A stretch of 64,000 bases of DNA from Clytia hemisphaerica (taxonomy: Eukaryota > Cnidaria > Hydrozoa > Leptothecata > Clytiidae): positions 561,536 to 625,535 of the forward strand of contig CACVBU010000956.1 in NCBI GenBank assembly GCA_902728285.1. Direction: 5' to 3'. Positions 13,669 to 40,784 of this stretch are shown here, one piece after another. Below the pieces are notes generated by a model that did not search any database, was not told the origin of the DNA, and saw nothing but the letters and a program-made list of their open reading frames with translations. A program made the position numbers and the translations under genes. The first letter of the stretch is position 1. Each line of letters begins with the position of its first letter.

Positions 13669-16600
13669 TTATCGTTTCTCAATATTGATATAGATTTCTT
13701 CTTTGGGTGAGGTTACTAGTCTATGAACAGCCTCTACTTTCATGTCGGGCACTAAAGAAACCTTGAAATTTCTGACAATGGCTACAAGAAATATGATCGC
13801 TTCGTAATATGCGAATCGATATCCAGGGCATTTTCGTTTACCGGCAAAACCGAATGGCTGAAACGCCAGAGGATGTCGTTTTGGAGCGTCTGGGCCAAAT
13901 CGATCGGGATCAAACCTTGAGAAAATCAGTTACATTGGTAGATTCTTTTATAATATTGCTATTATAAGAAGGCTTTAGATGGATTAAGGGGATTCGAATA
14001 AGCAAATTTCTTTTTTTATAAAACCACCCCTTAAATTTCAACTCAACCCCCTCTTTCAAAAGAAAGAAGATTGCACCAAAAGTCAACAAAAGTCAGCCAA
14101 TTTTTAAGGAAAATATCCATTAATTGTTATTCCATTTATTGAATTGCATAAAGAAAACTTAAAACTTTGTTCTGCAATACTGGGAATAAATTTTGCCAGT
14201 TCAAAAAAGCAACAATAAATTAATAAACGCACCTTTTTGGTTGTGGCCAAATTGTTTCGTCTTGTAGAACACAACCCAAAGCTTGCAAGAGAGGAGTCTA
14301 ACATGATAAGAAAGAAATTATATCATCATTAGGGTAGACTTAGTTATTCAGTACAGTCCGCCAGTGGTAAAAAAAAGTTCTATACAAATTGGGGAAATTT
14401 TCCTCTAAATTTACACTCCCTTGGTAAAAATATCGTCCCCGGTGGAAATTTATTCTTCGATTATTGTCCCTACAGATAATAATCAAATAAACAACCCCTC
14501 ACTGCAAAATATTGTACTTTTTTCCCGTCTTCTGAATATTGAAAATACTTTAAAAGAAAAAAATTTTGACGGAAATTTAATTTGGCGGATGGCCGAAAAA
14601 GTTTTTTCAGAGGGAATTTAATTTAGTGGATGGCTGGAAAAACTAAATTTGAAGGGAATTTAATTTGGCGGTTGCAGGATATTTTTGGCCAAAATCGTTA
14701 TCAAATATAAGTAAAAAAACCTGTTTTGAGCCCTGAAATAGCACTAATTTGGGGAATGCGTTATATAAAATAAATTTGGCAGGAATTTAATTTGGCGGAT
14801 GGAGGAAAAAATACATTTTGGCAGGAACTTAATTTGGCGGATTCTGGCTAAATCCGCCAAATCCGCCAGATTTTCTTTCCGCAAAAATTTCTTCCTTTAA
14901 GGGTATAGAATTCAAATCCCCAGCCATTAAAAACAAGGATATATCAATCCTCATTGAGTTTCTGTCCGTGATTTTTACACCCAATAGCGGAAAAAATCTT
15001 TCCTACGGACATCCGTGAGAAGGGGGTGTAAATTACCATTGGTTCTTTGAGCTAGAAACTCTACATCCCCATTTAGAAAAACTTTACCAACTCGGAAATT
15101 TGCAATGTAGCAGAAGAGACCCTAAAGTTTCCGTGTCACCCAAATTCATCGAGAAAGACAAAATCATCATATCTTACATGTTTTGGTATGACGTGCCCAC
15201 CAATGACCATGTCATATTCCGAATATCTTGCAGCATACGGTGCCAACACGGAGCATCTCATTGTTTCGTCCACCACTTGTCGCGCGTATCTGTCCGAAAT
15301 AAACATCTTTGGAAGATCAATTTTGCGAAAAAGCAATTTGTGAAAAAAAACAATTGAACATGAACCACGACATGTGTCATTTTCCTTTTGTTTAAGAATT
15401 TCATTCCATGCGCGTGCTGTATTTTTTAGTTGTGAAGAAAATAAATAGAAAACGCCTCATAAGTATGTTCTTGGGAATTTTGCTAATTCATCGTCATGCC
15501 TTAGGTTTCAACTCAACTTCAGATCGTCTATAAAACCATCAGCGTGATATTCTTACATTAACTTATCAAAGTTGTCCATAGTGATTTCACCATCACCCAG
15601 TACTTCGTTTATTTCAGTCAACATTTTGTCCACCACTTTCGAATCGTTGCAAAGATAATACACTGCCCATGTCAACACTGAAAAAATAAAGCAATGGTTC
15701 CTGTCGGATGGTTGTAACTTATTTCTTGTGGACAACTGGGATATGCAAATCAGACACAGGGTTAGAATGTGTTAACCTTGAATCTGCCCCGGTGGTCTAA
15801 TCTAGTGTAAAGGATGTAAAGGGCGTATTGAAGGTTATAAAAGGGAAAGCCTTGAAGGCTAAGCATAAATAAAAGACTTACGATTTCCAGTAGTGTGAAA
15901 ACCTCCAACGATATACGAGATGACCATGTCAAAAATCTAAAAAACAAAAGCAACAAGCTTTTAGTTTATATCGTCGCATCGATCCTTTCGGATAACAAAA
16001 AGACAGAGAATTGAAAAAAAAGAAGGTAGAAAGAATATGGATCAAAAATTAAAAAGCACGGGGGTCGTAATAAGATTATCAAGCAGATTTTCTGGCTCAG
16101 GAGACTTAAAAAGTAAGTACCTTTGATTTCATTAAATTTTCAATATTAAATATAATCAAGTGAAGACACTTTTTAGGTATCCTACAAACACCTCAAATAG
16201 GCTTGACAGGAGATGAACTACCAACAAAGGATTGAGAAGTATCGGGTACCTGTTGATCTGAAGTATAGAGGTCTTCAGCATCAATCATGATGTCCAGTGC
16301 ATTGTTGTCTTTCTTCTCTTTATTCGCTTTGCGATGGTTCACAATCTGTGACACTTTCTTACTCAACCAATTCAACGCTACGGAGAATATACGCTGGTGT
16401 GTTATGAGTTTTGCGGCCACTATCGAGCGTGTTCAGAAAGGGTCACCTTTCAATTTTTCATTACATAAAGAGGTTGACATTTAAGGGTCTTAACTTTTAT
16501 CTTTTTGGGAGTTCTGCGTTTTTTCACACCAAAATACTTGGACGATAATTGTATCACCAAATATATATGGAGCTCTAATGATTGCTTTCACATGTGAATC

Positions 16601-19600
16601 AAATCGCAATGAACGATTAAAATTATGTGTAGATTTATAACAATGAATTCAGACGAATTAAGTTTTTTTTAATTAACTTACAATCGTCGTAATTCTTCTG
16701 GCGATCACTGTCTGGTTCCGGCATATTTCCATCCAAACGTCGCTCCATTTCTTCCCAGCACTGAACGGAAATTCGATGAAAAATTTATTAATACATTGAA
16801 CATTCAGTCTTAAACTACGAACTAGAATGTAAAAGGCTTCGGAAAATCAACCAAAATCGGAGCCTGGTAAACGAATGGGTAGACAGGCGAAAAGTCTGTC
16901 AGATATCCCTTTTTAAAATCAGGGCCCAAGAAGAGAGCTTGACCAGTTATAAGTCAACTAACCTAAAGTAACATTACAAATAAGACAAAAATATTCTAGA
17001 ATATCATCTTTTAGTTCAATTTGTTCAGTGTGACAATTTACCCTTACTCATAAGAAAGTACAAAAAAAACTAAAAGACTTACTACATCGTAAGCAGCTTC
17101 TAGCTCTAATATTTCTTTGTTACTTTTGAAGTAATCTTCGCCAAAGGAGGTTCTGATGATGGACTTGATAGCCACAGCTAACATGTGTTGACGCAGGGGC
17201 ACCATCTCGTCCTTTGGTACCTTGGACCACCTGGTAACGAGCTCATTTGCAATCTAAAACCATCAAGTTTATTTACTCACGTAAGACTTGCTTGAATAGT
17301 AAATGAAAAATAAATATTGGACATGGATCCGAATATATCAAATCCAGAGGCGTATTTAGGGTAGGTCAAGTAGGTCAAGTGACATAGTTCCGAGAAATTG
17401 AATAACATGAAAAATTGTGAAACAGGCTTTCTTATTCCTTTTAGTGATACACAGTCCCCTTCAGATGCCATGTCTTGTATCAACTTTATCAATTTTATGC
17501 GTGCGGCAGTTAAAACTTATCTCTAGTTAAATTTATCTCCGCAGTTTTACCTCTCTAATGTTTTGCGAGTGAACCTTTCGCTATTTAGAGGCTTTTATTT
17601 TGATAATCCGAAAACCTATCTAATACCGCCCGACCCATATCGCCCCGCTTGAGTGACTTAGCAACACCCTTTTTGACCTCTTTCACCCTAGCAAATCGGG
17701 ATCATATTATTACCGAGCTCAACTTCTCTAAAAATTCACGTGTAATGACCTTGAGTAACTGCTATATATCTGGCCGCCTTTCATTTAGAGATAATATGAA
17801 GCTGAGAGACATAGCTAGAAATAGCTGAAACGACCTAGCAAAATTTCTGAAAAAATCGGGGTAATAGCTATGAGGCTACGTACAGCTTCTCTGTCGAATT
17901 TATTAAAAAACAATACTCAATTCACTTTTCCTAGCTTATCTCTTTCACAGTTTTTATTGAGAGAAGCTCAGTTTCCAGAGCTGAAATTTGCTGAAGCGAC
18001 CCAGTTAACTTTTGAGTTTGATCTGAAATTTTGTGAAAGTCCAAGTAACTTTCACGTCAACTGTGATTTTATAGCTTTAATTCTTATGGATCGATTGCTA
18101 AGAATTGATCGTCAGGGTATTAAGTATAAGCACCAGTTGTCACTGCTTTAAGTTGAACTAATAATGTTTATTTTTTAGCAAAAATGAAGCATTTTTCAAA
18201 GTCTTTTAAAACTTTGTTTTTTACCTGCTTTTTGGTTGTTGTTGTGAGCGGAAATGAATATATTAGAATGACTTGACACCATTTAATTACCTCCTATTCA
18301 ATTCAAAACATAAAAAATAATTTTAGGGATATAAAGGCCTATAAACTCAACTATAACTCATCTATATTTCTTGTTTTGGGGAAACGGACATTGCTCCACA
18401 TCAGTATCTATTTTTTTACCACAAGCGATTAATTAACGTAAAAAGGTAGTTAAAACGTGAGACAGGTGTATATGTTGAGTAAAAAAATTCTCATAATTTG
18501 CAAAGTACGAGTGCGATACAAACTACGTCCGTCTAAACAAAAGTGGAGTCTTGCATAGAATAACTCGGATAGCGTTTAAACGAAAAATGATAAACGCCTT
18601 TCTAAGAACCAGACTTGAACCACTTGGCTTCAAAAGTTTGACCTACTTGGCAAAATTCCTAAATACGCCACTGAAATCCTTTGTTGGAAATCAAATTAAC
18701 GTTAGCGTACAATTTGATTTAATTCTGAATTTGTTTTGATCAACAAGAAATTTGTGAGGGGTTATAAACCTAACTTTACATTGATACTTAGCCAGTAACC
18801 AATAATGCGGGGTTCTAAAAATGATGGCGTGATGATGAAAAATACAATGACAAGTTTCGGGTTGTCATAGTGGAAGCATAAGGCGAGACCAAATTAATTT
18901 ATTGTTCTACAGGCCCGACTGACCCTGTTATTATAGAAAAAATCATAACATTAAATTTGCTTAACTGAATAAGTTGAAAGAGTGTTAATTCATCCTAGAA
19001 CTTTGATGAACTTAAAATATCACAATAAGAATGCCACGAATGTCGTCCATCGACAAAGAGGAAAAGGAAATATTTCAGATCTTGATTTTCCTACCTTAGA
19101 TTTTAAGAAATTTTTTTTATTATACCGACCGACCAACCCGTATTTTCCTAAAGAACAATAAATCAAATTTGTCCCGCCTAACCATTGCTCATCAGAAAAC
19201 GAATCAAACTTTGTCTATAGCTTCGAGGATGAAACCTTAGATCCACTAAGTATAGTATTAAAGTCCTGAAACTGAAACAAATTTTTATCAAAGAAAGAAA
19301 CAAACTAACAGTGGTGAATGTTTGGAAATATAATCCGATGGCAGTAAACGAGAAATGTCGATCAAGTATTTTACGATGTTTCTGTCCGACAGGTGTGTTC
19401 ATGTATTGAATGCTGTACACTCCCACCAAAGGTTTGAACAATTCAAACTGGTTCGCTGAAAATGGAAGAGAAGGGTAAATAGTGCAAATCACTTTAAAGG
19501 GACACTAAAGTAGTAAAATGTAAACATTGCGCGAATCACGTGTCATTAAAGAGAACAATTAAAATCACGTGTCCAAAACAAACTTGTAAAACAATTGAAC

Positions 19601-22600
19601 GATCAAAATTGACCATATTTGGTTAGATTTTTTATTTTGACATGTGGCGTTTGTTTTGATTTATATCCGCTCGTACAGTTTGTTTACAAATTTCGCAAGT
19701 ACTGTTATGTCCCTTTAATCTCCAATGGTTCCCCGAAAAAGGATCAGTATGTATTTTGCAGACCAGCTTGTAAATTAATCACATGAGTCCTAAACGGAAT
19801 CAAAATATTAGTTTATTTCAATAGCTCAAGAAAGAGTAGACAATGTCAAAAAATATGTAGACGAGGAAAGCGGCAACTAATAATATGAGCTTCACCTGGT
19901 CTATCGAAGAGTGTTTGTGTATCTTTCCATGCATAGGGCGATGCCAAACTCACAACCAATTCCTTTCCCCAATAAAATGAAAACATGGGTCCAAACTTTT
20001 TGTGATGATCCAATAAAAATTGATGCAAGCCGCCATCTTTGGTGATTTGTTTTAAATTCCCATATCTAGTATGAAGTAATGGAATGCGATGTCCAAACAA
20101 CAATCAAGAAAATCCAAACTCAAGATACTTCAGTCTGAGGGTTTATAATTAAGAATTTTTCCGAGAGTGCAGTCCACTCTCACTAGATCGTACTAAAGAA
20201 AACAGTTTTTTCGAGCTACAGAGTGAATTGAATTAAAGGAAGAATTTTAGGAGTGTTTCTTTTGATAAGGAATGAGAATTAGTTCGAATTATAGAGAAGG
20301 TCGAATAATAGAAATTCGAAATAGCGAAAGCCCACTGTTAAATCTAATCCCTTTATAGGGGAAACAGTTTTTTTTGGGATCCTTAGATTCATTTTGCTTG
20401 ATTTTTACAAAACCATATATACCTTATTGGCCTTTTTTTACGCCGGCCCTTATTGGCATTATTTTTGGGCTCGTGGCGTAATAAGGGCCGGTGTTAAAAG
20501 GGCCGGTATAAAAAGGGCCAAAATTTAGCAATTTTTACCTAAAAGCGGCGTTAATTTTTGACCATTTTTTCTCAATTTAAAGGATTTTAGGCATGAAAAA
20601 AGGATGAAAACTATCCATTTTTTTACTCTTTACTTTTTTTATATCCAAAACTTCACGAAAATCAATGATTTTCAATGGAATTTTCAACAGTTTAATACTG
20701 AAAGTAAATACTTACTGTTTTGAAGCCTGAATAGCGATTTTTACAAGTTTTGGCATCATTTACGGCCCTAATTGGCGTAAGCCCAAAATTAGGCTTTGGC
20801 GGAATAAATGCCGGCGTAAAAGGGGCCGGCGTTAAATAAGGGCCGGCGTAAAAGGGGTCGGCGTTAAATTAGGGCCGGCGTAGAAAGGGCCGATAAGGTA
20901 GTCAAAATCTCGAAAATCGAGGGAGAAGGGAAATCTTGATTTTCGTTAAAGTTTTAACTTCTCAGAGATAGGGTAAATTTTCAAAACCTTAATTTTCCGT
21001 AACTTTCTACAGGCGGTAACTTCGATCAAAGATGGCGGATATAGCTTGGTCCAGGGATATATAAAGGTCAGTGGTCTGAGCAGGTCGGAGAGGGTTGTCA
21101 AAAACATCCTGTGTTACTTTAGGTAGATAAATCTTTGGTTGTTTTGGATTCACATTTGCAAAGGACATAACACTAAGAAGTGATGGACGTGCGAAGAGAT
21201 GTGTACAGTGGGGCTTTCGCTAGTCTACACAATAGACAGATCCAGGCTTTTAGGCCTTACTCTTGGTCTATAGGCACTGCTATAGGCGGCCACTAGTGAC
21301 CCCCACTGGGAATTGCTTATTAATAGGTTTAAACATAATAGACAACATTCACAAAAGATGTTTATCAATAGAGATTTTAAATAAAAGAATGTTTAAAACA
21401 CAGCTGATTGGCTTAGGTTTCGAAACTCTCTATTGTTTCATTAAAACCTCAGTGCGCATGCGATTTATCTGGAGAATTTCAATATTCAAAACAAGAGGAG
21501 TGCTCATAGCCCGAAGAGTAGGAGTTTTACGCTCGAAACGAAGGAAGATATGACGTAGCCTAGGCTTTCGCATGTCTTTACACGTACACGAACCTTGCGT
21601 GTCAGAGACTCGCAAGCGGCTCCTTTCACTATTGAAAACCTATTTATTGGCGACTCGTAGCCTCGAACTAATAGGGACACTCAAGCTATTTAAAACAGGT
21701 CAAAAGCCTATTATAATTTGCGAGCTATTATGTAGTGCAAACAGAAAACAATAGTCTGCGTGTTGAGTGTCGCAAGTCTTCTTATGTGCGAGTGCTCCTA
21801 TTGTTGGACGCTTAACAGTTGCTTATATCGTTTTATAAAAATGTATTGTGCTTAGGATGGAACTAAAAGGCTTGAAATCAAATGAAAGAAAGTAAACTTT
21901 TTTCTTTTCTCCTTTTTAATTCATTTTACATTTCTTTCAGTCTAAAATTTCGAAATGTAGTAAGGAACCAACAGAATCAAATGTTGTTGCTATTAAAAGA
22001 ATTGAATATAGAACAAATACTGGATATGTTAACTTGTCTCCCTTGTCCAGAAATTTATTCTGGAAGATTCATTTTGGAAAAAAAAGTTTTAACCCTTATT
22101 TTTTCACACTGACAACGTTAACAAAAAACACTGATGAAACGTCAATGAAAATGGATATAATTTTTTAGTGTCCTAAAGCTTTACCCCCTAGTTTAACTAC
22201 TATTGGCAATACTTTGTTTATATGGTTGACGTCCATGGGTTAATGTATCGGCATTTCGCTTGGCCAACCATGTCCCAAAAGCTTTTAATACCATCAACTA
22301 GTTGATCTTATGCCATCGGTTATGTTATTTCTGAGATGATATCTCATTTCAGCCCATAGCATAGGTTTTTTTAGATTTAATTTTTTTCTTCTAATTTCAT
22401 TTACTTATACACGTTTTTTTAGATTTAAGAAACTAGTTTTACCAAGCAGCCTCAATGGTTCTTAAGAAATCGGCCTTTTTGGAAGGCTCTTAAAAAAAAC
22501 CGAATTAAAAAATGTTATTTTCTCATTCTCAGCCTCAGCATGTTTCCTAGATGTTTCTTAGTTTTTAGGCGTTCTGAGCCTTGTGTTTCTTAAAAGTGTG

Positions 22601-25600
22601 TTTCTTAAAAAGAAAACGTGTAATTTTATTATTACCCTCTATATACTATTACAGTGTTAGTCTGATATCAGGGTTCGAATTATAAATTTTAAGAGCTTCC
22701 CTATTTTTTTGAGCGAAGCGAGATAAAGGAGCAAAGTATAGTGAAGTTTTGAAGTAACGAGTAGATGAAGCAATATGTAAACGAGTGAATAAAGTTGCGA
22801 GTTTATAAAGCAATAGATAAACGAGTGAATAAAATAGCGAAATGACAAGTAGATAAAGCAATAGATAAACGAACGAAGAAAGTAGCGAAGTGGCAAGTTG
22901 ATAAAGCAATGGATTTTTAAACAAGTGAATAAATTAGCGAAGTAGTGAGTTTATAAAGCAATAGATAAACGAGTGAATAAAGTAGCGAAGTGGCAAGTTG
23001 ATAAAGCAATAGATAAACGAATGAAGAAAGTAGCGAACTCGCAAGTCGATAAAGCAATAGATAAACGAGTGAATAAAGTGGAGAAATGGCGAATTGATAA
23101 AGCAATAGATAAACGAGTGAATAAATTAGCAAACTCGCAAGTCGATAAAGCAATGGATAAACGAGTGAATAGAGTGGAGAAGTAGCGAGTTTATAAAGCA
23201 ATAGATAAACGAGTGAATAAATTAGCGAAGTGGCGAGTTTATAAAGCAATAGATAAACGAATGAAGAAAGTAGCGAACTCGCAAGTCGATAAAGCAATAG
23301 ATAAACGAGTGAATAAAGTAGCCGAGTAGATAAAGCATTAGATAAACGAGTGAATAAAGTAGCGAAGTAGCAAGTTGATAAAGCAATAGATAAGCGAGTG
23401 AATAAAATAGCGAAATGACAAGTAGATAAAGCAATAGATAAACGAACGAATAAAGTAGCGAAGTAGCAAGTTGATAAAGCAATAGATAAACGAGTGAATA
23501 AATTAGCGAACTCGCACGTCGATAAAGCAATAGATAAACGAGTGAATGAAGTGGAGAAATAGCGAGTTGATAAAGCAATAGATAAACGAGTGAATAAAGT
23601 AGCGAACTCGCAAGTCGATAAAGCAATAGATAAACGAGTGAATAAAGTGGAGAAATAGCGAGTTGATAAAGCAATAGATAAACGAGTGAATAAAGTAGCG
23701 AAGTGGCGAGTTTATAAAGCAATAGATAAACAAATGAAAGAAGTAGCAAAATAGGTGTTTTCTTATGGTTTTTTAATTTTGCATTTTTAAAGTCTATTCA
23801 CGATAAGTGATTGACCCCAAAAAACAGCAAAAAACTGCAGAAAACAGCGTTTTTAGACGTCAATCAGCTTATAACTTTGTTTGATATCTTTTGAATGAAT
23901 GATTATTTTTGAGAATTTTTTTCACAGTGATGACGTTCGATGATTAAGAATTCACTTCATTGAAAATGATAGTTATAGCACTTTTCTACAAGGTCTTCAT
24001 TTTTTTCTTCATTTTTAGAATTTTTTTAAAGTTTTTTCTATTTCAAATTGTTCCACTCACTAATATCTTTCCAATGATACCAAATTTATAAAGATTGAAG
24101 AATTCCTTCAAAAGTTATAGGTAAATGAAAAAAGAGTGAATAGACTTTAGTTAGGAAATCTTTTTGGATCGCTAAAAAATTCACTTCGCATTTTGTGAAG
24201 TGCGAAGCTATAAATTGGAACCCTGGATATTGTTTATATTATCTCGTCTTTTAGACGCTCTTATTATTCAATAAATACATTGAAAGGCTTTTCACAAATC
24301 TTTCAGCTGTATCTTCTTTGCTTAAAATAGGAGGCCTTTAAATATAAAACGTCAGTAAAATACTCACTCGCTTCCCTATTAATTCAAAACAAATAGCTTT
24401 GCTTTCCTATTAATCAGCGGTTGAATAGCACGTACCTATTATACTAAACTAAATAGGCCTTTTATAAAAGGTACGAGTTGAGTGTTGGGAGGGAAATCAA
24501 AAGCACTCGCATTGAACGAGTCTAAATAAATTGGATTTCTAACACCTATACATTATGTACTTGCAACGCGCGAGCTTCGCGCACACGTAAAGACATGCGA
24601 AACCCCCACTAGGTGTTTTTCTTCGTATGGAACATGAAAGATTGAACGGGTGAGTTCTCATTATCCTAACAGTTCATTATGTAGTTTTGATAAAAGGGAA
24701 AAGAAAAAAAGAGCACTTACATTTCATGCTTGCTGGAGAGTCCAGGGATTGATAATTTCCCTTGATTTCGTTCATTCTAAAAATAAAATAAAATAAGAAC
24801 ATTTGTAACACAAAAGTTTGATATCTTATTTGAAACTTTTGATAAGATAGAACGTGTAAAACAGAAGATATGATTGAATATGATTGGTTTAGATAATCCT
24901 CACAATGGACACGATGCAAGCCCGAAAGAAGTAACCAAAAACAAGATCAACTTTTTATTTTTTTTATTTATTCTTTATTTATCGTTGATACGAAACAAAA
25001 ATAGTACAAAAGAAAAAGACTAATTAAATAACCAACATGACAATCTAATATTTACTGAATAGTAAATAATATTATCAAAATTAAAATATTAAAATCATTA
25101 AAATATTGAACACAGTTTGCAAGAACAATATATTTTTGCTTTCAAAATGTTGGTTTTAAAGCACTCTACTGAGTCTGATGTTTTAAAATCTCATTTGGCA
25201 GTCTATTCCAAGCCTGTCCTGCCCGATAATTGAAGGAGTTCAAGCAAACTAGATTTTTTGGTAGAGGAAGTTTAATTTGAGCGCCTCTCCTGAGTTTTGA
25301 AGCATGTGGGGAATCCACATCCTCATCCTCGTTCTCAGTATCACGCTGGATGATTTCAAAATGGCTCCACGAGCCCAATTTATTTCCAATATTGTTGACG
25401 TTCTTATAAACTTCCACTAGCATGAGTTAGAGATTTTGAGTATATGGACACACAATTTGCTTCGAACAGTTTGCGATTTTGGACAGATTTGGGCGGAAAA
25501 TGTTGGGCGCCCGAGAGTGGTGGGCGTTTTTGTCGAGAAAAAGTCAAAATGAAAGTTTGAAAAAGTCAAAAAAAAAGTCAAAAAGTCAAATAAAAGTAAA

Positions 25601-28600: not shown

Positions 28601-31600
28601 CCTTTTTTTTCTCAATTTTTTTACTTGATAATATTCCAATCACGAATATCATTTTAACAAGCACTTAGTCTTAATCGCAACTTGATTCGAACTCTATCAA
28701 AAGTTACAGCCATTTTTGTCTCCAGCTGCAAATTATTTCGAGAGAGACTTTAGTATTTCGTTTTTCTCGCAAAACGGTATTTCAATCAAAACTCTTCTCT
28801 TTGAGATCTCAAAAAGAAATAAGGGTATAAGAGGACACTCGTCAGAAAAATCGACTTCTTCTTCAAATTGATTAATTACACTATCAATAAAAAACGTGTA
28901 GGGAAAGCTTCTTTTTGGAACTTGGAGCGAACAGCTTGTTTTTCTGCTTCAAAATCCATGGAGATTTTGTGGGAGCGATACAAGTCTACATTTATGGCAT
29001 TGCGTTTGTAGCGTTTTTGCACTTTAGACGTCCAGTGGCTTGGTACTTAATTTGGTTTACGATAGACTGATGTGACTGCTTTGTTATTGTTGATTTCTTT
29101 CTATCTGAGTGTCTAGAAATCTGGATGGATTTTCCTCGACGGTAAATTTAATGCTTCTATGATAACTGTTCAGCTTTAAAAAGACTTCATCATTTTCATT
29201 GGTTTTCCTTCTACTAATAACATCGTCATCACTGACTTTCTTATTCCAAATAAGAAATTGTTTTGTTTCAAAACTAGGCATAAGTGAGATTTAATGAAAT
29301 GTCCATTTATAGTCAGTATAGCGTAGACAGGAGGGGCGCAAAATTTGTGTAGGAGAGCAGATTTTTATGACACAGTAATTATCTTTATATAATACACGCT
29401 TTTTCTTTTATAAGAATAACTTCTATAAGAATATCAGGGTGAGATTTCGGGTTTAAAACAATAGGCCTATTGTTTAGAACAATAGAAAAATAAGAATAAT
29501 GCTCACCCTCAACCAAAGTACACTATTCTTATAAAAAAAAGCGTGTATGAATATATAATTAATGCGTCATAGAAATCTGCTCTCCTACACAAATTTTGCG
29601 CCCCTCCTGTCTACGCTACTACTAGCGTATTACTATTAGTCTTATGGGATTGCCAGGACGAGACAAAACTATTTGAACATATTGAAAACGGTTCAAGTGT
29701 ACTCTTTAAAAATATTGTTAAGTGTTGTGATTTAAAATTCTACATTTCATTTAGAAATAGAAAGAAATCAAAGAAGAAACAATGGTTTGCATCATGGACG
29801 AAGGCTATTTGTATATCGATCCAACGTTCCGCAATATTGCAAGTTTTTTCTTTGCCATGTCAGCAATGATCGCATTCTTCGGAAACATTTTTTGTCTGAT
29901 TGTATTATGGCGAAATTCAGACGGTTCGAAAGCAAACAAAATTCTGTCATCGTTGGCTACCAGTGATTTGTTGTGTAGCATTAATAATATTCCTGCTGTC
30001 ATCTACATGATGCACCATGGCCACACGCAAACTAATATCCCATGTGAATTGAAATCCTTTGTGAATGTGATCACGCTATTGTCAATAAATTGTTCAGTAT
30101 GCTCGATCATACTTGTAACATACGACAGATTTGTCCTCATCAACAATCCCTTCACATACGATGACCTACTCTCCGAGCAAAAAGTCAACTTTATCATCAT
30201 GTTCATTTGGATGATAGGCCTGGTTGTCAGCATAATAGCTGTCCTGTATCAACCGTTTTATATAGCCAGTACCTCTATTTTCTTGATTGTTACCACACTT
30301 GTTCTTATTTTGAGTTATTTCTTGCTTTGGCGAGCTGTTCGTAAAATTCAAAGAAACACTGCTGCAATACAGATACCAGAAGATGCACAATCCGATAATA
30401 TCCGTCTAGCTAAGAAGGTTTCAATCTTCATCATATTTTATTTGGTAGCCATTATACCAACTTTTATCTACGTTCTCTTGTCATTAGGATTTCATGCTCT
30501 TCCTGATCACACCAAATCTCAACTATATCTTTTTTCATTGTTTACACTGTTTTCCAACTCGGCTGTCAATCCGTTTCTTTATATATGGAAAGATCCAGAG
30601 TTCAAAATTACTTGTAAAAGACTGCTCAAGAAAAATAAAGTCACTGCTTTCTTTATCCAAGAATCAATAAACTAAATATAAGAAGATGGCTCAAGTTTTG
30701 AGCACTGAGCTTCAATAAATGGCTGCTATTTCTACCATCTTTGATCGGATCTTTTGCGAGCGGTATCCACAAGAAGCTACAACGTCACTACTATACAAAC
30801 GTTCAAGAGAAAGTATATCGAGGACTATGGAAGTATTTGTAGCCCTATCAATAGTAGTGGAAGCATTTAGTAGTCTTAAAGAATTTGTACCTCTACCATA
30901 CCTTTCTCACAAACCCGGTGGTATTTTTTCGGACCAAAAATCGATGTGAATTGATTTTACTAGTTCTTTAATGGCTTAGGATTTTAATTCCATTGTTTTC
31001 GAGCCAGAAATTTCAGTAGGGATAGATAGAAGACAATATTTTGTACTGAGGATATGCTTATCTGATTATTTTTAGCGGGAACAAAAATTAGAGTACAATT
31101 TTCCACTGGGGACGATATTTTGGCCAATTTTTCCAGTGGGAAGGGGTCCCAGTGGGTCTGCGAGAAAGGGGTGTCCTATCAATAGTAGTTGTATCACAAT
31201 ATCAAGAAAACCAGGATAAAAGAGTTCCAGGGTCTATATAGGCTGCACGCATCCCCAGAATTTATTTTGTTATAGGGGATGCGTATCGTGTATGAAATTC
31301 TCGTCCGAGAGTTACCTCAAATTTGGGGTAACCGAAAGTTGCATAAATTTACATAATTTTGTTACATCCAATCACAGAAAGAGAAAAATGACGTCATTGT
31401 GTTATTGCTTTCATAATTATAAATTTTCATTCATTAAACAAAGAAAAAGAGAAGTCGTTGTACAGCTGTGACACATAATCAAAAAAGAGAAAAGAAAAGA
31501 ACGGGGGTAAGCTGGGACAGGAATATCTTAGACGATACGCATCCCCTATATCAAATCATATCAGAAGGGATGCGTGCAGCTTAGGGTCTATATAAAGCTC

Positions 31601-34600
31601 AGTGGTTTTGAGATACAAACAAAATGGATAGTTGTTAAAACAACAACTTCCATTGTATTAAAATCTGTGGGTTTGAAGATTTTACAGGAATTGAACAATT
31701 GGGAATAAGATAATAAAAATAAATGAATAAAAAAAGCAATATATATACTTTCAAAGTAATCAATAGTTCGCGATTACTCCCCATCAATTTTAGCAAGGAA
31801 ATGTACGTTGAATGAGAATAATCTTATAAGTACTTTAATCAAACAACCGGTATAAAACCTGGTACTGTGGTTGTGTTGCATTTGGCAAAAGTTTGTTTGA
31901 TCTAGTAAACTTAGCACATAATTTTTTATGTTGCTTCAAATATAATCAAAAGTCTGTCTCAACATACTCTGCAGCAGAGACAATTTTTTACCGTTTTTAC
32001 ATTTTAAAAAAGAGTGTGCTTTTTATATTCTGATACAAAAGCAGCAAAGCACGATTTTGAACTTTTCTTTTTAATCTGTATGAAATTTCTAATCAAAATG
32101 GTGTATAATAAAAATATATAATAATAAGAATGGGTTTTTGTTCTCGTTTGCAGAGCCTGGCAGCCAATATGATGAAAGAAAATTTTGAATCTGCCATTAT
32201 GTACTTCAAAACCTTTGTAAGACAAAAAGTTACTTTTTGTAATTTCTCATTTAGGTGGTAGAAATTCAAGTACATCGAATAAGCTGATCAAATATTACAA
32301 CCCCAGCAAATTTTAGGAAAAAATTGAATTTCTCGAACAAAATCAGATTTCTATGTTTACTCCGATTGGCACCCTCTACACCTGCAACATACCCTTGCAC
32401 AGGTGGAAAAAATTTAATTTGTTAACATCTTTTCTCAAGTGATGCGTATACAGAAAAAATTATTGCTTCCACAATAGAGTGCAAATCATGTGGTAAGTAT
32501 TCAATTATTAGTTAGACCAGCAGCCGAGGTAGTGAATTGTTTCACTTCGTAGGGTACCCCTTAGATCAGGGCAAATTTTTGATATTATGCTCCTAATAGG
32601 GTGTAGAGTTGACAAAAAAAATTTGTCTTTCGATTCTCCTGCAGTTTTCGAGTGAATCGATTTTTAGTTAATCGATAGAACTTATCAAGGGTCCCCCCTT
32701 TACTAACGGTTTTTTCGAAGCTGAAAATCAAATATCTGAGGCTACCAACGGATTCAGCGTGAAGAGTAAATAATAGTTGGGCCCTCCTTTACCACAACTA
32801 TAAAGAAAGTATCTGTTGAAGAATGTTATTGAGATTTGTTAATAAAATCAAGGGGATGGAAAAGACTGATTTTTATTTGAAGGTTTTTATGATTTTGTTA
32901 AAGAAAACGTCTTAGGGGTATTTCATGCATTTTAAGGAGTTGAGGATTCAACCTTGAGAGTTGAAAATTCAACCTTTCTCCTAATGTCGACAGATTTCCT
33001 TGAAGTCCTTGAAAACTAACAAAGATCGACTAAAGACCCTTGAAAACCCTGGAAAATTAGTCAAAAATGACTCTTGAATTTGTCGAAAAAGAAGTGCTGG
33101 CTACCATAGAAGTATTTTCCCAGGAATTACAAAAGAACAAAAAATCCTTTTTGCATTTTTAACAATAAACAAGTGATACTTTTATGGACCTACCTGGTTA
33201 TCAAACTAATCAATGAAATTGAAACAATGAAACATATAAGACATAACTGGTCAAAATACAAAAAAATAAAGAAAAATGAAAGCATATCTATTGGGAGAAA
33301 CTATCAACACTATTGAAAAAGACTTTTGATAAAGAAATAGAAAAGCTTTTCTTTATAAAAAAAATGCACTATCTGAAAAATGCACAGCTCAATAAATAAG
33401 GTTTCCAGAAAACTCAAACCATCGCGCTCTACCGTGACATTTTCTTCTTTTAGAAAAAATAATAATAAAAATAATAATTATGCAAAGAACATTGATCTAT
33501 GCTTATAAATAGTGATTCTTATAGATAAAGATTCGTTATCAGACAAAAAATAATAAGTGTTTCTAGAAAACTCAAAATATTGCCCTCCACTACGGTGGCC
33601 GAGAAGGGCAAAAATCTTACTTTCTTTTTTCTGGGGGAATCTTTCTTTTTTTGGGGGAATCTTTGTTTTTTTGGGGGAATCTTTGTTTTTTTTCGGGAAT
33701 CTTTAATTTTGTTCGAATCTTTAACTTTGGAGGAATCTTTTTTTTTGCAGTGGGGGAATGTTTTTTTGAGTCATGACTTTTCATTCGGTCCCGTAATAAT
33801 TGAGTCAAAATGGTAACAATAAGTTATAAGAATCACGTGCGGAGGAGATCGAAATATGTTCAGTTGGCTAGTTGGGTTGGCTGGCTGACACTCACTTGAA
33901 AGAAAATTAGAGCCCCGTGAATTATTCGACCCTGTTTTTCACATTGGAAAATTTTGCGGAAACTCAATTTTGCGGTATGGCCCAAATCCACAAAAACCAC
34001 AAAATTCCTATTCCTGTCTTACAATTGTGGATGAGAATTTTGCTTTTCCTCTCTGAAGATGTCATGTCAATCCCCACTTTCTTCATTTTCCGCAATTTAA
34101 ACTCCCTTAAGTAGACTCTTTGCTGGTTGAAGTGGTGCATCTGCGTTGTATCAATGTACTTTCTTACACAGGTTCAACACAACAATTTAACAAAATTTAA
34201 TCCAATGAGTCCAGCTAAACAGCTAAAGTAGAGTGTACTTGTCCACTTCAACTCGCCAAACGCAGGAGACCATTTCGTCAAAGTGGAAAACGTTCAAGTC
34301 GCTCGCTTTTTATCTGAGCCATTTTGTAGAATCATCCGTTATTTTTAGTAAGTAAGTAAGCCAGAATAAATGGCCGAGTTATTCCGGAAAAACTTTAGTA
34401 ATGTTTTTGAAATTTATGACAATAACGGAAATACGCTGGATGAAAATCAGTTCCTTTTTTTTAAGAAAAATTAGCCTGAAAACTCACGGGCATCGTACAG
34501 AAATCATTTTAGCCTCAACGTTTCTTAAGAAATCGGCCTTTTGAGCCTTAAATGTTTCTTACATGTTTCTAACATAACATTCTTTTTGACATAATCAGCC

Positions 34601-37600
34601 TCATGTAAGGCTGGATTGGAAGGTTCTTAAAAGAAACCGAATGAGAAAATGTTATTTTCTCATTCTCAGCCTCAGCATGTTTCTTCGATGTTTCTTAGTT
34701 TTTAGGCATTCTGAGCCTCGTGTTTCTTAAAAGTGTGTTTCTTAAAAAAAAACAACGTGTAATGCAATGCCCAGATTGACCCTCAAAATCTTTTTTTCGA
34801 AAAATGAACTCATTCATATTTTGGACAACGTTATTCTACGTATCTGTACAAAAATCAGGAAATTCTAATGAATGCACTTTTCACAAAGTCCAAAAAACCA
34901 ATTTTAGGCCCGAATAGGCCCAAGAAAATTTAAAAGGTTCGATAATACACCGTTTAGTAGTTTAGTAGTGTCGACTGCGCACGCGTCCAAACAATTTTCC
35001 ATTGTTTTGATTTTAGCGACCACTCTTTCCCGTAAAAAAACAGTGTAGCTGGAACCTCGATATTCCAGGATTAGAAAAAGCTATACCTGTTATCTTTTTT
35101 CTTTAAAGAATCAACAAACCATCAACATCGATAAATTACACACATTTACTCAGAAACTTTTAAAATTATCTGCCATTATGACTTTCTTGAAGCCGTTTCG
35201 AAATGAACCAATCGGGTTATGTATCGGAATTCCTACGGGAGTTCTTTTCCGAAATTTGTAAAATAGCTAAGTCGGCAAAAAAACTTTTCACGGGGGTTTG
35301 AGGAACAACAGAACTGCTATCATTTGTTTGTTATTTAACCAGATATTTAAATTCGGGCTCAAAAATACTTAAAAATAAATCAGTTAATAATATTAAATAT
35401 ACTATTTGTATCTCTCAGAAAATAAACACTTACAGAACGACATCGTTTATCATTTGGAATACCCCCGTATTTGGACCATTCTATTGTTGGCGCAAAATAG
35501 GGCGGAAACTAAGTAGCACCCTCAGTGCAAGATTGCCGCCTCATCTTTATTCACCCCCGCGAGAATGCGAGCTAATCATTTTTTACTCGCGCACTCAAGG
35601 GGAAAAGGAAAGTGATCGATATTCTTTGAAGAAAAAACGTCAGAAACAAACCCAAAGACCAAATAATGTATTTTGTTGTTGAGAATCGATCCTGTGAAGA
35701 TGAAAAAATTTCTGCTTTGCGTTTTTTTCGGAACGCTGAAAAACTCCAACTTCGATCTTCCTATAAGGTAAAGAGGTTGCGAGATTTGGGTTAGCAAGGC
35801 AAAAATTGCTAAAAAGCTGGTAAAATCGTAATCCTCAAAAATCGAAGTTCCAGCCTCACTGAAAAACGGTAGGTAAAATTCCGGTTCTCGTAAGGAAACC
35901 TACCAGAGAAATATCAAGTTCAAATATCTAAATCATTCTCTTTAAGGAATGAAAAAAATTGAAAATGTTTACATTCCTCTAACCTTCCACAGTACTAAAG
36001 TGCGCATTTTTACTTACCTTTTTTACGGTGGAACACGGTGGAGATAGCAAGACTCCTAAACAGTGTATTGGCCACCAACATTTCAGACCGTTGTACCAAA
36101 ATAAAAAAAACCCTGTAATTCAATCCTGAGAAAAGTTGGCAACAGACGAACGAAGGAGCGGCGGAACCGAGGAACACAGGTTAATTTATAGGTATGGGTC
36201 AAAAAATAGCATGGGGAATACTTCTGTCAATATGTTTCATGCGTCAACTATGTAAGCATTGTATAGTAGTTTGGGAGAATGTGACAAACTATAGTTGTTT
36301 AGGAGAATGCGGTCTATTGAATAACAAATACTCCACATAAATTACTTTTCCTCAGCCATTAAAAACAACCAGACCATTTTTCATGCCTTTTTAGCATCCG
36401 GTTATTGGAGGCTGTCTTTCTTGAATTATGAAAAATAATGGTAAAAACAGCCTTTATTATGAAAAAACAGCAGAAAAAGTGCCTTTTTTGGTTTTAAGCC
36501 GACACTGCCATGCCTTGCCTTTCTATCGGCCTTTCAACCGAACCCTCTATTAAACCCAATTTTATTAATTGAACCATCAAACTCAATCGAACGATGGATA
36601 GGTGTTAGTCGATTACCAAACCAATAACTTCTCAAAATAATATGTCATAAATAATCTGACATTACAAAAGTAACAGTGCAGTGCCCAGTTTGCAGAGTAT
36701 GACATAGACAGGAGAACTGTCCTGTATTTTTTTATAATCTGATGTATACAGGACGGGTATGACCTGTCAAAAAATGTACAGTGGGAAATTCGAATTTAGC
36801 GCTGTCCTCACAATAAAAACCAAATTTGGGAAGTTGCGCATTCTCTAAAAAAGTGTGATCAGTAAAACAATAACAAACAAAATTTGATTGGCTATGTTTT
36901 CAACCGTTATTAGGATTTCAAACTCTCAGCCAATACCATGCTATATATTTCGCCATCAGTATATAAAATAAGAAATCATAGCATGGATCTCCAGGCTGCA
37001 CTGTTTGAGGAAAAATTAGGAAATACTAAGTTCTTCCGCACTGGTGACTGGGAGAGCGTACCTGATAAATTTTAGTTGTGACAAGGTCCACCTATAGACC
37101 TTTTTCAAAGAGACAACCCTGTTGAATAATTATGTAGTCCAGCCATACAAACAATGATACAGCAATGCATAATTACTGTTTCGTGCATATTGTAATAATT
37201 ATGCATGGGAGTATCATTGTTTTTCTGCTGGACTACATAATTATTCAACAGGGTGGCTTCTTTGAAAAAAGGTCTATTCCTATATACCTCAGATATTCGC
37301 CCAAAAACTAAAAAGGCAAAAATTGCTAAAGTTAGCTAAGGGGTCAGTCACAAATCGATTCTAGGTTAGAAGAACGTCAATTGACGTATATGGGTGGGTG
37401 GGTTAAAGGTTGTTGACGTTTTTTCAGAAACATCTATTTTTCATTCCATGCCAAATATTACTTCTCGCCATGTTTCTGTTTGATCGCTTCGTTTGTTTTG
37501 AAAACCAAAACAAACGGCCCGATGTTTATGTCTTTTCTTTGTTTAACGGCCCGGACGGCCCTTGAATTTTTGCAGATGGTCGTTCTTTCTGTCGCTACAT

Positions 37601-38321
37601 ACTACGGAGATAATTAATTACGGGAATTTTGTGAACAAGTTTAGAAATTGTCTCCGTTTCTTTTTTTTTTTCAAATATAAACTATGCAAGCCGTAGTGAA
37701 AATCAAGATGGCTGACGAAACAGCGATGAAGGCAGTTTTAATCGATTTTCGTGGATTTTAGGCGTTTGACGTTTTCAAGGTTGGGTGGGTGGTTCAGCAA
37801 TTAAAACGTCAATTGACGTTCTTCTAACCTAGAATCGATTTGTGACTGACCCCTAAAACTGCACTTGAGAAAAAATAACTGAACTCTGCATCTGAGGTTA
37901 AAAAACAGTCACTTGCACTTGCACTTACACTGGAAAACCTCAAATTTTGCACCTGAAAAACTCAAATTTTGTACCTGCACTTGACTTTTTCGGAGTCGAG
38001 TTTGTGCACTTCAAGATATCTTGAACAAACAGACAAACGTGCCACACTCTGCAAACAAACACTGGGTGCAGCAGTGCAAAGGCTTCAAAATAAAGAACAA
38101 TGAAATCTGATATTTTGTAATCTTAACCAAGCAACAATAAGCTGATAATATGCAAGGAACGAGGTTGGGTTGATGGATGGCTGGATGGGGATGATATTAT
38201 AATATATGAAAAAATCACTTACCCACCAAAGGTAAACAAGGGTGAAAATGAGAAGAAGAATTGCTGTAGTAGCAAGTGCAAGGTAATCTGATGATCCTAT
38301 ATTTGTTATCAATTGCCTCAT
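13669..38321 (-). CDS. CYP20A1: CYP20A1-type cytochrome P450, complete, 12 exons
   Basis: Exons (minus strand): 38321-38223, 24776-24721, 20065-19896, 19455-19310, 17253-17083, 16760-16682, 16377-16250, 15936-15882, 15677-15557, 15289-15178, 14297-14233, 13915-13669. Every junction has GT/AG and matching phase; the sum is 1449 nt, 482 aa plus TAA (human 462 aa). Exon 1 gives Met and an ER signal anchor (about residues 13-33). Exon 2 gives the proline hinge (IPGL), and exon 3 opens with the CYP20-like GNL...GLHQFL stretch. The I-helix is 292-301 with GGFHTT, the K-helix ExxR is E350-R353, FDPDRF is 402-407, and the heme loop FGFAGKRKCPG is 422-432 with Cys430 as predicted iron ligand. The VVSL, VPL.QHML and DRF stretches match human CYP20A1 best. 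The substrate is unknown, as for the human orphan. The I-helix has His297 where most P450s carry an acid before Thr. Intron 1 (13.4 kb) contains a GPCR gene on the other strand. Confidence 0.93.
14298..15177. other. CYP20A1 intron with a degenerate TTAA-type MITE
   Basis: From about 14570 to 14905 the intron repeats 'gggaatttaatttggcgg' blocks and ends ...aaaatttcttcctttaa. This is the reverse-strand relative of the element at 3628-4086, including a shared 'ttggccaaaa' core. A matching left terminus was not found. Confidence 0.55.
17254..19309. other. CYP20A1 intron 4, no supported feature
   Basis: Contains short open frames (for example 17870-18151) with no recognisable domain, poor initiation context and no splice partners. 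No TIR element was seen. Confidence 0.5.
19497..19715. mobile_element. Small TA-flanked MITE in a CYP20A1 intron
   Basis: The ends AAGGGACA and TGTCCCTT, with subterminal gtaaac/gtttac blocks, are flanked by TA at 19495-19496 and 19716-19717. It is 219 bp, just upstream of exon 4. Confidence 0.65.
20422..20898. mobile_element. TA-flanked MITE with repeated GGGCCGG boxes
   Basis: The ends CCTTATTGGCC and GGCCGATAAGG are flanked by TA (20420-20421 and 20899-20900). The inside carries about seven 'gggccggcgtaaa' boxes clustered towards the ends around an AT-rich core. The boxes resemble transposase-binding subterminal repeats. It lies in CYP20A1 intron 2. Confidence 0.75.
22408..22622. mobile_element. 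TACACG-type MITE, copy 2
   Basis: The ends TACACGTTTTTTTAGATTTAA and ...TTAAAAAGAAAACGTGTA are inverted. The interior ('ctcattctcagcctcagcat', 'gtttcttagtttttaggc') is shared with a truncated relative at about 34450-34764. Confidence 0.75.
22690..23750. repeat. 48-bp minisatellite, about 22 copies
   Basis: The unit ataaagcaatagataaacga...gtgaataaagtagcgaagtggcaagttg recurs every 48 bp (for example 22805 and 22853). As 48 is a multiple of 3, each copy keeps frame and several long open frames arise on both strands. These are by-products of the array. Variant units alternate (gtggcgagtt, actcgcaagtc), indicating higher-order structure. Confidence 0.92.
23790..24147. mobile_element. Deleted copy of the palindromic TA element
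   Basis: Ends AAGTCTATTCACG and AGAGTGAATAGACTT with TA on both sides (23788-23789 and 24148-24149). The sequence jumps from the left terminus to the middle of the 7557-8233 element and keeps only the right arm, so the palindrome is lost. Confidence 0.85.
25166..27430 (-). pseudogene. Broken non-LTR retrotransposon (LINE) reverse transcriptase
   Basis: Minus-strand fragments in RT order: about 27430-27300 (LRKAIMLRSKLKN...RNYVVN, N-terminal side), 27298-27260 (MMDLSKAFDC, the catalytic-region LSKAFD motif), 25990-25800 (NSLVANPEKFQ, VKLLGVTID), 25795-25660 (YLNQEQADLIFNSF with stops) and 25423-25166 (FNYRAGQAWNRLPNEI, C-terminus). The pieces are separated by deletions and by inserted repeats, including the CAGTAGCG repeat from 25975 and a low-complexity 'aaaaagtcaaa' stretch at about 25550-25650. 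It cannot function. The fragments fit a CR1/L2- or Jockey-like clade; I cannot place it further. Confidence 0.8.
25975..27170. repeat. Interspersed repeat starting CAGTAGCGTGGTGGCAGGGG, copy 1
   Basis: This sequence recurs, interrupted, at 39107-47150. It begins CAGTAGCG, has 'gaggctttttgaaggggcgc' and 'ccgctcacttcgctcgcatg'-type blocks, and runs to 'gcatgcattggggattatgg' and 'gtgtcggtgaagaggataaa'. The start is hAT-like, but no matching right end was found. At 26490-26493 it has an uninterrupted TTAA exactly where the second copy carries a 7-kb insertion. Confidence 0.7.
27500..29290 (-). pseudogene. Broken Penelope-like retrotransposon (3' part)
   Basis: Minus-strand fragments in the expected order: 29281-29084 (RT thumb side, FTVEENPSRFLDTQI), about 29060-28900 (VYRKPN, an in-frame stop, then HWTSK...YKRNAI and FEAEKQAVRSKF), about 28890-28760 (VINQFEEE...EIPFCEKNE) and 28055-27642 (LFPLKDKNPYPACKIY, the GIY-YIG-type motif with CSCGQIFIGETKRN, ending in a NGVT tail). 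The GIY-YIG endonuclease next to the RT end is the mark of Penelope-like elements. It has stops, a frameshift, no 5' half and an inserted palindromic element at 28058-28750, so it is dead. Confidence 0.88.
28058..28750. mobile_element. Palindromic TA element inside the Penelope-like pseudogene
   Basis: The ends AAGTCTGTCTCG and AGAGAGACTT are flanked by TA (28056-28057 and 28751-28752). The arms of about 330 bp meet near 28400. It shares termini and the 'aaagatattcgtgagtggaa' block with the 7557-8233 element. It interrupts the retrotransposon codon-exactly: removing the insert and one TA puts both sides back in frame. Confidence 0.92.
29319..29623. mobile_element. Hairpin MITE with a second MITE in its loop
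   Basis: Outer inverted arms of about 45 bp: tagcgtagacaggaggggcg and its complement at about 29578-29618. The loop contains a complete TACACGC-type MITE at 29393-29547. The outer target duplication is unclear. Confidence 0.8.
29393..29547. mobile_element. TACACGC-type MITE, copy 3 (nested)
   Basis: TACACGCTTTTTCTTTTATAA at the left and ...TTATAAAAAAAAGCGTGTA at the right, 155 bp. It is inserted in the loop of the hairpin MITE at 29319-29623. Confidence 0.82.
29744..29781 (+). promoter_or_regulatory. Splice acceptor upstream of the GPCR start
   Basis: tttcatttag ends at 29754, 27 bases before the ATG. As with DHCR7, an intron-less CDS preceded by a good acceptor fits a 5'-UTR intron or spliced-leader addition. 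Confidence 0.55.
29782..30675 (+). CDS. Orphan class A G-protein-coupled receptor, intron-less
   Basis: A 297-aa single-exon ORF with seven hydrophobic segments. Rhodopsin-family marks in order: GN in TM1 (FFGNIFC), LATSDLL in TM2 (LAxxD), Cys before TM3 (PCELKSF), YDRF at the end of TM3 (a DRY variant), a basic third loop, and NSAVNPFLYIW in TM7 (NPxxY). The retinal lysine of opsins is absent: Phe lies six residues before the Asn of NPxxY. It is therefore not an opsin; amine, peptide or lipid ligands cannot be told apart. The extracellular N-terminus is only about 20 aa and lacks a signal peptide, which is normal for the class. It lies entirely in intron 1 of the CYP20A1-type gene, on the opposite strand. 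An acceptor precedes the start and AATAAA follows the stop. Confidence 0.9.
   Translation: MVCIMDEGYLYIDPTFRNIASFFFAMSAMIAFFGNIFCLIVLWRNSDGSKANKILSSLATSDLLCSINNIPAVIYMMHHGHTQTNIPCELKSFVNVITLLSINCSVCSIILVTYDRFVLINNPFTYDDLLSEQKVNFIIMFIWMIGLVVSIIAVLYQPFYIASTSIFLIVTTLVLILSYFLLWRAVRKIQRNTAAIQIPEDAQSDNIRLAKKVSIFIIFYLVAIIPTFIYVLLSLGFHALPDHTKSQLYLFSLFTLFSNSAVNPFLYIWKDPEFKITCKRLLKKNKVTAFFIQESIN
30714..30719 (+). terminator. Polyadenylation signal of the GPCR gene
   Basis: AATAAA, 38 bp after the TAA stop. Confidence 0.65.
31239..31583. mobile_element. 345-bp MITE with 9-bp target duplication
   Basis: The ends TAGGCTGCACGCATCC and GGATGCGTGCAGCTTA are inverted. The exact 9-bp direct repeat gggtctata flanks them (31230-31238 and 31584-31592). 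A second inverted pair, ggggatgcgtatcgt and its complement, lies just inside. A 9-bp duplication suggests Mutator-like mobilisation. Confidence 0.85.
31593..37096. other. CYP20A1 intron 1, mostly featureless
   Basis: No exon or domain was recognised. It contains a (gggggaatctttgttttttt)n minisatellite of five to six copies (about 33630-33745) and a truncated TACACG-type MITE (about 34450-34764, right end aacgtgta). Confidence 0.5.
37097..37274. mobile_element. 178-bp TA-flanked hairpin MITE
   Basis: The arms are gacctttttcaaagagacaa and its complement, continuing through 'gttgaataattatgtagtcc'. TA lies on both sides (37095-37096 and 37275-37276). It is nearly a perfect hairpin. Confidence 0.88.
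37340..37853. mobile_element. 514-bp MITE with TAA target (Harbinger-type)
   Basis: TIRs of about 48 bp start GGGGTCAGTCACAAATCGAT and are almost perfect. TAA flanks both ends (37337-37339 and 37854-37856), the TWA target typical of PIF/Harbinger elements. It lies in CYP20A1 intron 1, 0.4 kb from exon 1. Confidence 0.88.
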
Positions 38322-40784
38322 CCTTCTCTTTTCTTCTCAAAAATCAAACCAACATAAAAATTTCTTCTGGTTAAGTTAATGCTGAAACTCTGCAGTGAAA
38401 CACGACATCACCGGCAAAATAGAAAGTGAAAGTATTTGGGGGTTGGGGCGAGTCGAAGTTATCTAGATTTGATTGGAGTTTTTTTGGAATTGGTACCACT
38501 GACCTTTATATAAAGGTCAGTGATTGGTACCCGAGGAGAAGCCATTGCAATGTTAAAAATTAACGCTACATCATCAAGAGAATTTGAGGAAAAGTAGACC
38601 TAGCGCTCTCGATGCATTTACACCGCTATCGAATAGTGCCGCCATTAGGGTACCAATTTTCAAAAAACTCCGATCGAAGATTTTGCTTGGCTGGGATTGA
38701 GAAGCTTGGTCCAGGGTATATAAAGGTCAGTGGTGGAAATAAACCTTTCCCTCAACCTCGTCCCCGTGTATCCCAGGCTTTATTTACGTTACTGATTGAC
38801 GCCAGAGAATATTATATATTATCTAGCGCTATCAGTAAGCATAAAAAAGCTGATAATGCGCAGGGAACGAGGTTGCCTTTCCCTTAGACGTGGGGGGCGT
38901 ACGGGAAAGCGGTTTTGCGCGGTTTGTCGGTTTCGGCCCTTTTTTTGTCGGTTTATTGGTGAAGAGCTCGAAATATGTCGGTTTATCGGTGAAGGGTAAA
39001 CATCACGGTGTCGGTGATTGAGCTGTTTTTGTTCGGTTTTGTTAAATAACATATGTTCAGCAATAGCCCATTAGTAAAAGCTCTGATGGAAAAAATTGTT
39101 TACATACAGTAACGTGGTGGCAGGGGGGCAACTTCCTCCTCCCAGTGGAGGCTTTTTGAAGGGGCGCTCAAATTTAAGCTCTTTTTTGGAAAAAATTTTC
39201 CCGCTCGCGTCAAACAGAGTCAACTTTTTGCATTGATTTTTTTAGAATAGGCATAACCAATAATAGTTCCTCAAGGATCGTATGTGGAATTTTTCATAAG
39301 ATTTGTCATATATTATATGCCTGATTTTAAAGTTTTTATAATTCTATAAAGTTATTAAAATAATTTAACGTGGTTTTATTTTGTTCCTTTTCTAGTCGAA
39401 AATTTTGTGCTCGCTTCGCTCGCATTTCAGTATCATTATACTCTAATTGGCTCTACGCAATTCATCTCGATAAACAATGTCGCAAATTTTTCTTGCACGC
39501 TTTGCTCGCATTTCCTAAATGTTTCTAAAATGACCAAAAGTTCAAGTTAAGGTATGTGTTCACCTTTCTTGACACATTCTCTTTAATTGATCATATCTTT
39601 AGAACAACAAATTTTTATATACCAAAAGTATATATTTTCTGAAAGCCAATAAGATTCTCTTTCTAATGGTAAAAGTTTCAGCTGGATTTAAAAAACTGGG
39701 CAGGATATAATTAAAATCTTAAGAATTTTAACCTTACCTACTTCAAAGAAGTTAAAGTCACCCATAGCTTTTGAATTTTGAAAAAATAATTTCGATTAAA
39801 TTATGTTCCCAATAGATTAAACTAACAAAATTTCTTAGGATTTTTTTTGGGATTGACTTTAACTCTTTAAATCCTAAATTCTGTAAAAATATCGATAAAA
39901 AAGTAAATTTAAATGTGATTTTTTCAGTTATCTGTAAATTGAGGAAAAACAACTCGGTTAGAAATAAAATCCTTAGACACTTTTTAAGTTTGATCTTTTG
40001 GGAATCATATAAAAAAAGAATGAAGTTGATATCTCAATGCTATGGGTGACTTTAACTTCGTTAAAAGTAGTATGGTGTGGTAAAATTTCGTTTTTTTCTA
40101 CATCAATTTGAAATTTTTAACGAGATGATTGCTGTTTATTTGAGTAATCAGTGAAATGTGTCAAAAATATTACTACACTGGGCGAAATCTTGTCTTTCCA
40201 TTTTCGAAAGATGTTGAGAAGATCAACTTTCGACAAATTTCCAAAATTTTCGAAACATGAAGTTTCAAATTTGTTGAAAGATATTGGAAGCTCATCTTTC
40301 GATGTCTTTCGACTTTTAGGAAGATGAACTTCTCTATTTTTCCAAGATTTGGAAAGACGAACTTACAAGTTTGTTGAATTTTGTTGAAAATTCATCTTCC
40401 AACAACTTTCTCTTTTTCGAAAGACGAACTTCTCTGTATTTCAAAAGTTTTGAAATATGAACTTTCAATTTTTCAAAAAGATGTCGAAAAGTCGTTTATT
40501 GACGTCTTTCAACTTTTCGAAAGATGAACTTCTCTGTATTTCAAAAGTTTTGAAATATGAACTTTCAATTTTTCAAAAAGATGTCGAAAAGTCGTTTATC
40601 GACGTCTTTCAACTTTTCGAAAGATGAACTTCTCTGTATTTCAAAAGTTTCGAAATTTGAACTTTCAATTTTTTTAAAAGATGTCGAAAACTCCTTGAAA
40701 CTCGTATATCGACGTCTTCCAACTTTTCGAAAGGCGAACTTTTACACTTTTACGTTTAATGTTTAATGTTTAATATTTTTTAAA

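Follow-up and report, generated by a model that had tools for sequence, protein, structure and literature searches.

The stretch of Clytia hemisphaerica DNA analysed here, 64,000 nucleotides in all and called the window below, carries an intron-rich cytochrome P450 gene on its minus strand and, on the opposite strand, an intronless GPCR gene that falls within the first and by far the longest P450 intron. Rebuilding the P450 from the minus strand joined 12 exons into a single open frame of 1449 nt (482 codons plus TAA), and all 11 introns proved to have GT-AG borders. A preliminary description of this DNA had proposed the same exon coordinates, codon total and phases, including a first exon of 33 codons and a second of 56 nt ending in phase 2, and all of these were reproduced. 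The introns sum to 23,204 nt, of which intron 1 alone accounts for 58%. The features of the two genes are as follows:

38223..38321, minus strand: P450 exon 1 (CYP20A1-type), 33 codons, with the start codon, a hydrophobic N-terminal anchor and the donor GTAAGT; predicted join to exon 2
24777..38222, minus strand: P450 intron 1, 13,446 nt, containing the GPCR
29782..30675, plus strand: intronless rhodopsin-family (class A) GPCR, 297 amino acids, head-on in intron 1, with TYDRF and NPFLY motifs and AATAAA at 30666 and 30714
24721..24776, minus strand: P450 exon 2, 56 nt, phase 0 to phase 2
19896..20065, minus strand: P450 exon 3, from the exon-chain rebuild
19310..19455, minus strand: P450 exon 4, from the exon-chain rebuild
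17083..17253, minus strand: P450 exon 5, from the exon-chain rebuild
16682..16760, minus strand: P450 exon 6, from the exon-chain rebuild
16250..16377, minus strand: P450 exon 7, from the exon-chain rebuild
15882..15936, minus strand: P450 exon 8, with the I-helix motif GGFHTT
15557..15677, minus strand: P450 exon 9, from the exon-chain rebuild
15178..15289, minus strand: P450 exon 10, with the K-helix motif ETMR
14233..14297, minus strand: P450 exon 11, from the exon-chain rebuild
13669..13915, minus strand: P450 exon 12, with the meander FDPDR, the heme loop FGFAGKRKCPG and the stop codon

An ATG at 24775, within exon 2, was considered as the start of the P450 and rejected, since it does not lie in the reading frame of that gene. 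Intron 2 carries a 48-bp minisatellite of 20 copies (22792-23747); its frames of 264 and 191 codons stay open because 48 is a multiple of 3, and their coding look need not mean coding.

Elsewhere in the window, a sterol reductase gene (ERG4/ERG24, 1.3e-70) occupies a single frame at 4567-5883 on the minus strand, its best solved relative being the delta-14 sterol reductase 4quv (2.9e-54). A 172-bp tandem array spans 8328-9302 (5.7 copies, 96% matches), and ankyrin-repeat frames lie on the minus strand at 54754-55086 and 60729-61142. Neither ARAGORN in its bacterial setting nor Rfam at gathering scores gave a match in the 64-kb window. Searching the assembly for cox1 returned one match, on a contig of 14,551 bases that carries, on one strand, cox2, atp6, cox3, nad2, nad5, nad6, nad3, nad4L, nad1, nad4, cob and cox1. 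This mitochondrial contig was read with the coelenterate code, cox1 being recognised by profile and the other genes by eye; cox1 is cut by the contig end, and the contig may be incomplete. Its order of protein genes is the same as that given for the hydrozoan Podocoryna in a passage of PMC13119343 and fits the hydroidolinan organisation outlined in part of PMC4655093, which bears out a cnidarian origin and narrows it to Hydrozoa.

The predicted P450 protein matches the Pfam profile p450 (PF00067) at 8.8e-65 over residues 44-475, and its K-helix, meander and heme-loop motifs start at residues 350, 402 and 422. In the CYP20A1 motif rows printed in PMC8110760, the corresponding starts are 360/412/433 for Hydra and 348/400/423 for Aurelia, and the spacing of 52 residues from K-helix to meander in the Clytia protein recurs in the printed rows of Hydra, Aurelia and Capitella CYP20A1. 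The heme loop is identical, letter for letter, to that in the Hydra vulgaris CYP20A1 row of PMC8110760, and the 482 residues compare with 496 and 481 in the rows for Hydra and Aurelia aurita. Within its own genome, the loop is one residue longer than in all nine aligned P450 rows, which represent eight genes (rows L006 and L043 are one gene; L008 and L046 were left out of the motif comparison), and the extra residue of the Clytia protein is seen again when it is aligned with 7wg0, its best solved match and a P450/reductase fusion of bacterial type. PMC8110760 terms the CYP20 heme-loop change a deletion, and its Aurelia row prints a dash; in the Hydra row printed there and in our protein, however, the loop exceeds the 10-residue consensus by one residue rather than falling short of it. 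The I-helix GGFHTT has His in place of Asp/Glu with both Thr kept, whereas D/E stands at this position in the same nine own-genome rows. Capitella teleta CYP20A1 reads AGFHTT in the row printed in PMC4229089, GFHTT thus being common to both; the I-helix column of PMC8110760 holds a dash for Hydra and Aurelia, and the comparison is with Capitella alone.

The same gene was sought across the whole assembly (417,433,876 bases in 951 contigs). With all 79 candidates scored and 67 matches found, identities of 78-100% fell only on exons of this gene, and the other matches reached at most 34%; exons 2 and 8 had no match of their own, which is unsurprising because they are only 56 and 55 nt long. We also found 94 matches to the P450 profile in the assembly, of which 24 (two matches that share a frame being counted once) sit in frames of 449-568 codons without a stop, so that an intron-rich P450 represents a contrast within its own genome. 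Heme loop, I-helix, K-helix-to-meander spacing and single copy together bear out the CYP20A1 assignment made in the preliminary description, and the motif rows printed in papers support the reading of this P450 as a single-copy CYP20A1 orthologue. As to CYP20A1 elsewhere, a table in PMC3012610 gives 15 for the zebrafish gene in a column that we take as the exon count, and the same source places CYP20A1 next to ABI2 in vertebrates. Passages of PMC8669017 and PMC3012610 describe its substrate as unknown in human and in zebrafish, respectively, and the former terms it the last human orphan P450.

The GPCR frame runs for 297 codons from the ATG at 29782 to a stop ending at 30675, with no internal stop, and its coding frame lies entirely within intron 1 (24777-38222), separated from exon 2 by 5,006 nt and from exon 1 by 7,548 nt. 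The opposite-strand nesting that had been proposed, with a plus-strand GPCR inside intron 1 of a minus-strand P450, is therefore upheld, and so is the placement of the receptor in class A, which is corroborated by a Pfam 7tm_1 match at 7.9e-25 (in two stretches, the best over residues 34-157) and by TYDRF and NPFLY, the forms that the DRY-like and NPxxY motifs of class A GPCRs take here. The two AATAAA hexamers at its stop fit a short 3′ end. By sequence, the closest solved relatives are the adenosine A2A and beta-adrenergic receptors, together with the melanocortin 4 receptor. A simple cut on hydropathy fails to resolve all seven helices; homology to the melanocortin 4 receptor covers residues 24-282; AlphaFold2, run on the single sequence, gave a poor model (pLDDT 48.5, pTM 0.34). 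Unlike the usual class A GPCR, the nested receptor has no TM6 tryptophan (AIIP in place of CWxP) and no cysteine in the ECL2 stretch with which a TM3-ECL2 disulfide could be formed. Both CWxP and this disulfide are common in class A GPCRs, yet neither is defining.

The nested GPCR belongs to a large family. After 132 of 464 candidates in the assembly had been scored, at least 123 matches stood at E 0.001 or better, the nested gene itself included, and among those scored the nearest relative is 39% identical. An uninterrupted frame of at least 285 codons was present in 27 of 30 fetched family loci, again counting the nested gene; the three loci with shorter frames (L035, L036 and L037) were dropped before the counts of cysteines and upstream sites, leaving 27 full-length members. 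In a tree of 30 rows, the nested GPCR is sister to a clade of 14 rows that includes an array on contig C472 (support 98/91), although the length of its branch (1.44) makes its place in the family unsure. An intact frame at the end of such a branch would point to constraint, since neutral decay would have broken it. The TM3 cysteine occurs in 22 of the 27 full-length members, every one of which also has a cysteine in the N-terminal stretch, and three of the five members without it likewise carry an N-terminal-stretch cysteine (in one case inside helix 1), these rows being related by descent, so that the count is not a probability. In the ECL2 stretch, 20 of the 27 lack a cysteine altogether. 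A reasonable guess is that an N-terminus-TM3 disulfide takes the place of the usual TM3-ECL2 one in this family. A site resembling a splice acceptor is found 27 nt upstream of the start codon of the nested GPCR, and such a site was seen, at another distance, in one of the 26 other full-length members; it may be there by chance, or may belong to a 5′ intron, a 5′ exon that is non-coding or a leader added by trans-splicing.

The weakest joint of the P450 gene model is the predicted splice between its first two exons. Were exon 1 absent, the K-helix would begin at about residue 317, as against 338-360 in CYP20A1 of Hydra, Aurelia and Capitella; because of this shortfall, the N-terminal anchor must derive from upstream of exon 2, and an exon roughly as long as exon 1 is needed. 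We scanned the minus strand from 24777 to 46000 for first exons that start with ATG, are in phase 0, span at least 20 codons, encode a hydrophobic helix and end at a plausible donor, and obtained two candidates, 38321-38223 (donor GTAAGT) and 31784-31686 (donor GTAAAA). Between exon 2 and the GPCR (24777-29781), no candidate first coding exon appeared even when any GT was accepted as donor and the helix cut-off was lowered. Because both candidates sit beyond the GPCR, its nesting is robust to the choice between them. We also screened 481 strand-kb from the window and the fetched loci, a total in which 19,839 bases of fetched loci that overlap the window are counted twice. Under strict rules, which asked for a GTRAGT donor and a helix score of at least 2, there were two matches, namely P450 exon 1 and the sterol reductase start (5883-5785), itself a real membrane-protein start. 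Looser screens of the same sequence gave 18 matches with GTRAG and 597 with any GT at a score of 1.6. It is also possible that the 5′ end of the P450 includes a non-coding exon, or that its start is split among several small exons. Pieces of one repeat, 93-95% alike, lie at 26210-26456 in intron 1 and at 39251-39492, some 0.9 kb before the start of exon 1.

Several readings other than that of two ordinary genes in one place have to be weighed. One would have the P450 start at 31784-31686, or at another nearer start, which would make the call of exon 1 false and leave the GPCR nested in an intron of about 6.9 kb. We consider this very unlikely: the rival exon likewise opens with an ATG, encodes a hydrophobic helix and is in phase 0, and sequence by itself does not dismiss it, but its donor is GTAAAA rather than the GTAAGT of exon 1, its helix score is 2.09 against 2.3, and the strict screen retained exon 1 and the sterol reductase start without it. 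Less likely still is the idea of a decaying retrocopy trapped in the intron. The GPCR is intronless and sits among repeats, as such a copy would; it has, however, no internal stop and retains its DRY-like and NPxxY motifs, and no parent above 39% identity was found among the 132 of 464 candidates scored. A recent retrocopy origin was rejected on the distance of this nearest relative, and the uninterrupted frames in 27 of the 30 fetched loci indicate that the family is intronless anyway. Preferring a self-contained family member, we infer that the GPCR would have reached this place when a member that already lacked introns underwent dispersed duplication, or else that the intron grew around it. 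Inverted repeat arms flank the gene, upstream within 28138-28664 and 29319-29618 and downstream at 31266-31309 with 31512-31555, and repeats hand-picked from the repeat listings cover at least 1,894 of the 13,446 bases of intron 1. The intron also holds, at 27645-28334, a frame of 230 codons with no Pfam match at E 0.01, whose cysteine-bearing middle resembles a retroelement endonuclease by eye only.

A further reading takes the nesting as a working regulatory device, in which the GPCR and CYP20A1, when transcribed, would each silence the other, whether through head-on collision or through antisense RNA. Collision and nuclear antisense pairing are both feasible for two genes on opposite strands of which one fully contains the other; nested layouts are common in animals, however, and PMC8467205 reports that nested pairs in human and mouse do not show a significant excess of divergence in expression, and we consider such a device very unlikely. 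The preliminary description raised a regulatory link as inference, and the present results lend it no support. Much the same doubt attaches to a longer form of this idea, that the nesting is old and has been kept in hydrozoans through head-on mutual exclusion between cell types, an orphan P450 and an orphan receptor being coupled by layout. To our knowledge, no substrate of CYP20A1 has been found in organisms other than human and zebrafish either. Among the literature matches listed on CYP20A1 in connection with nesting, GPCRs or hydrozoans, and on hydrozoan GPCRs that lack introns, there was no report of a CYP20A1-GPCR nested pair.

What the locus holds, then, is very probably two unrelated protein-coding genes that share a stretch, an intron-rich CYP20A1 outside and a self-contained intronless class A GPCR inside. 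Each would have its own promoter. The layout predicts that the two transcripts overlap at the level of pre-mRNA; splicing would strip the stretch antisense to the GPCR from the P450 precursor, so that only nuclear precursors could overlap or pair, and any mutual effect would most likely go no further than ordinary head-on transcriptional interference in cells where both genes are active. Surveys of nested genes in animals describe internal genes as typically short, intronless, on the opposite strand and in large introns with repeats around them, and the layout here is the same. The pair is thus one further example of a well-known class, from which it differs in the identity of its genes alone, and, set beside CYP20A1 of Hydra, Aurelia and Capitella, the GPCR in intron 1 is a feature of the Clytia gene as read here.

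The main value of the locus lies in a clean gene model for a cnidarian CYP20A1 and, beside it, in the shared I-helix histidine. That GFHTT is common to a hydrozoan and an annelid suggests an early origin: the histidine may predate the split of cnidarians and bilaterians, and the ancestral CYP20A1 may have possessed a possibly working oxygen-activation site.
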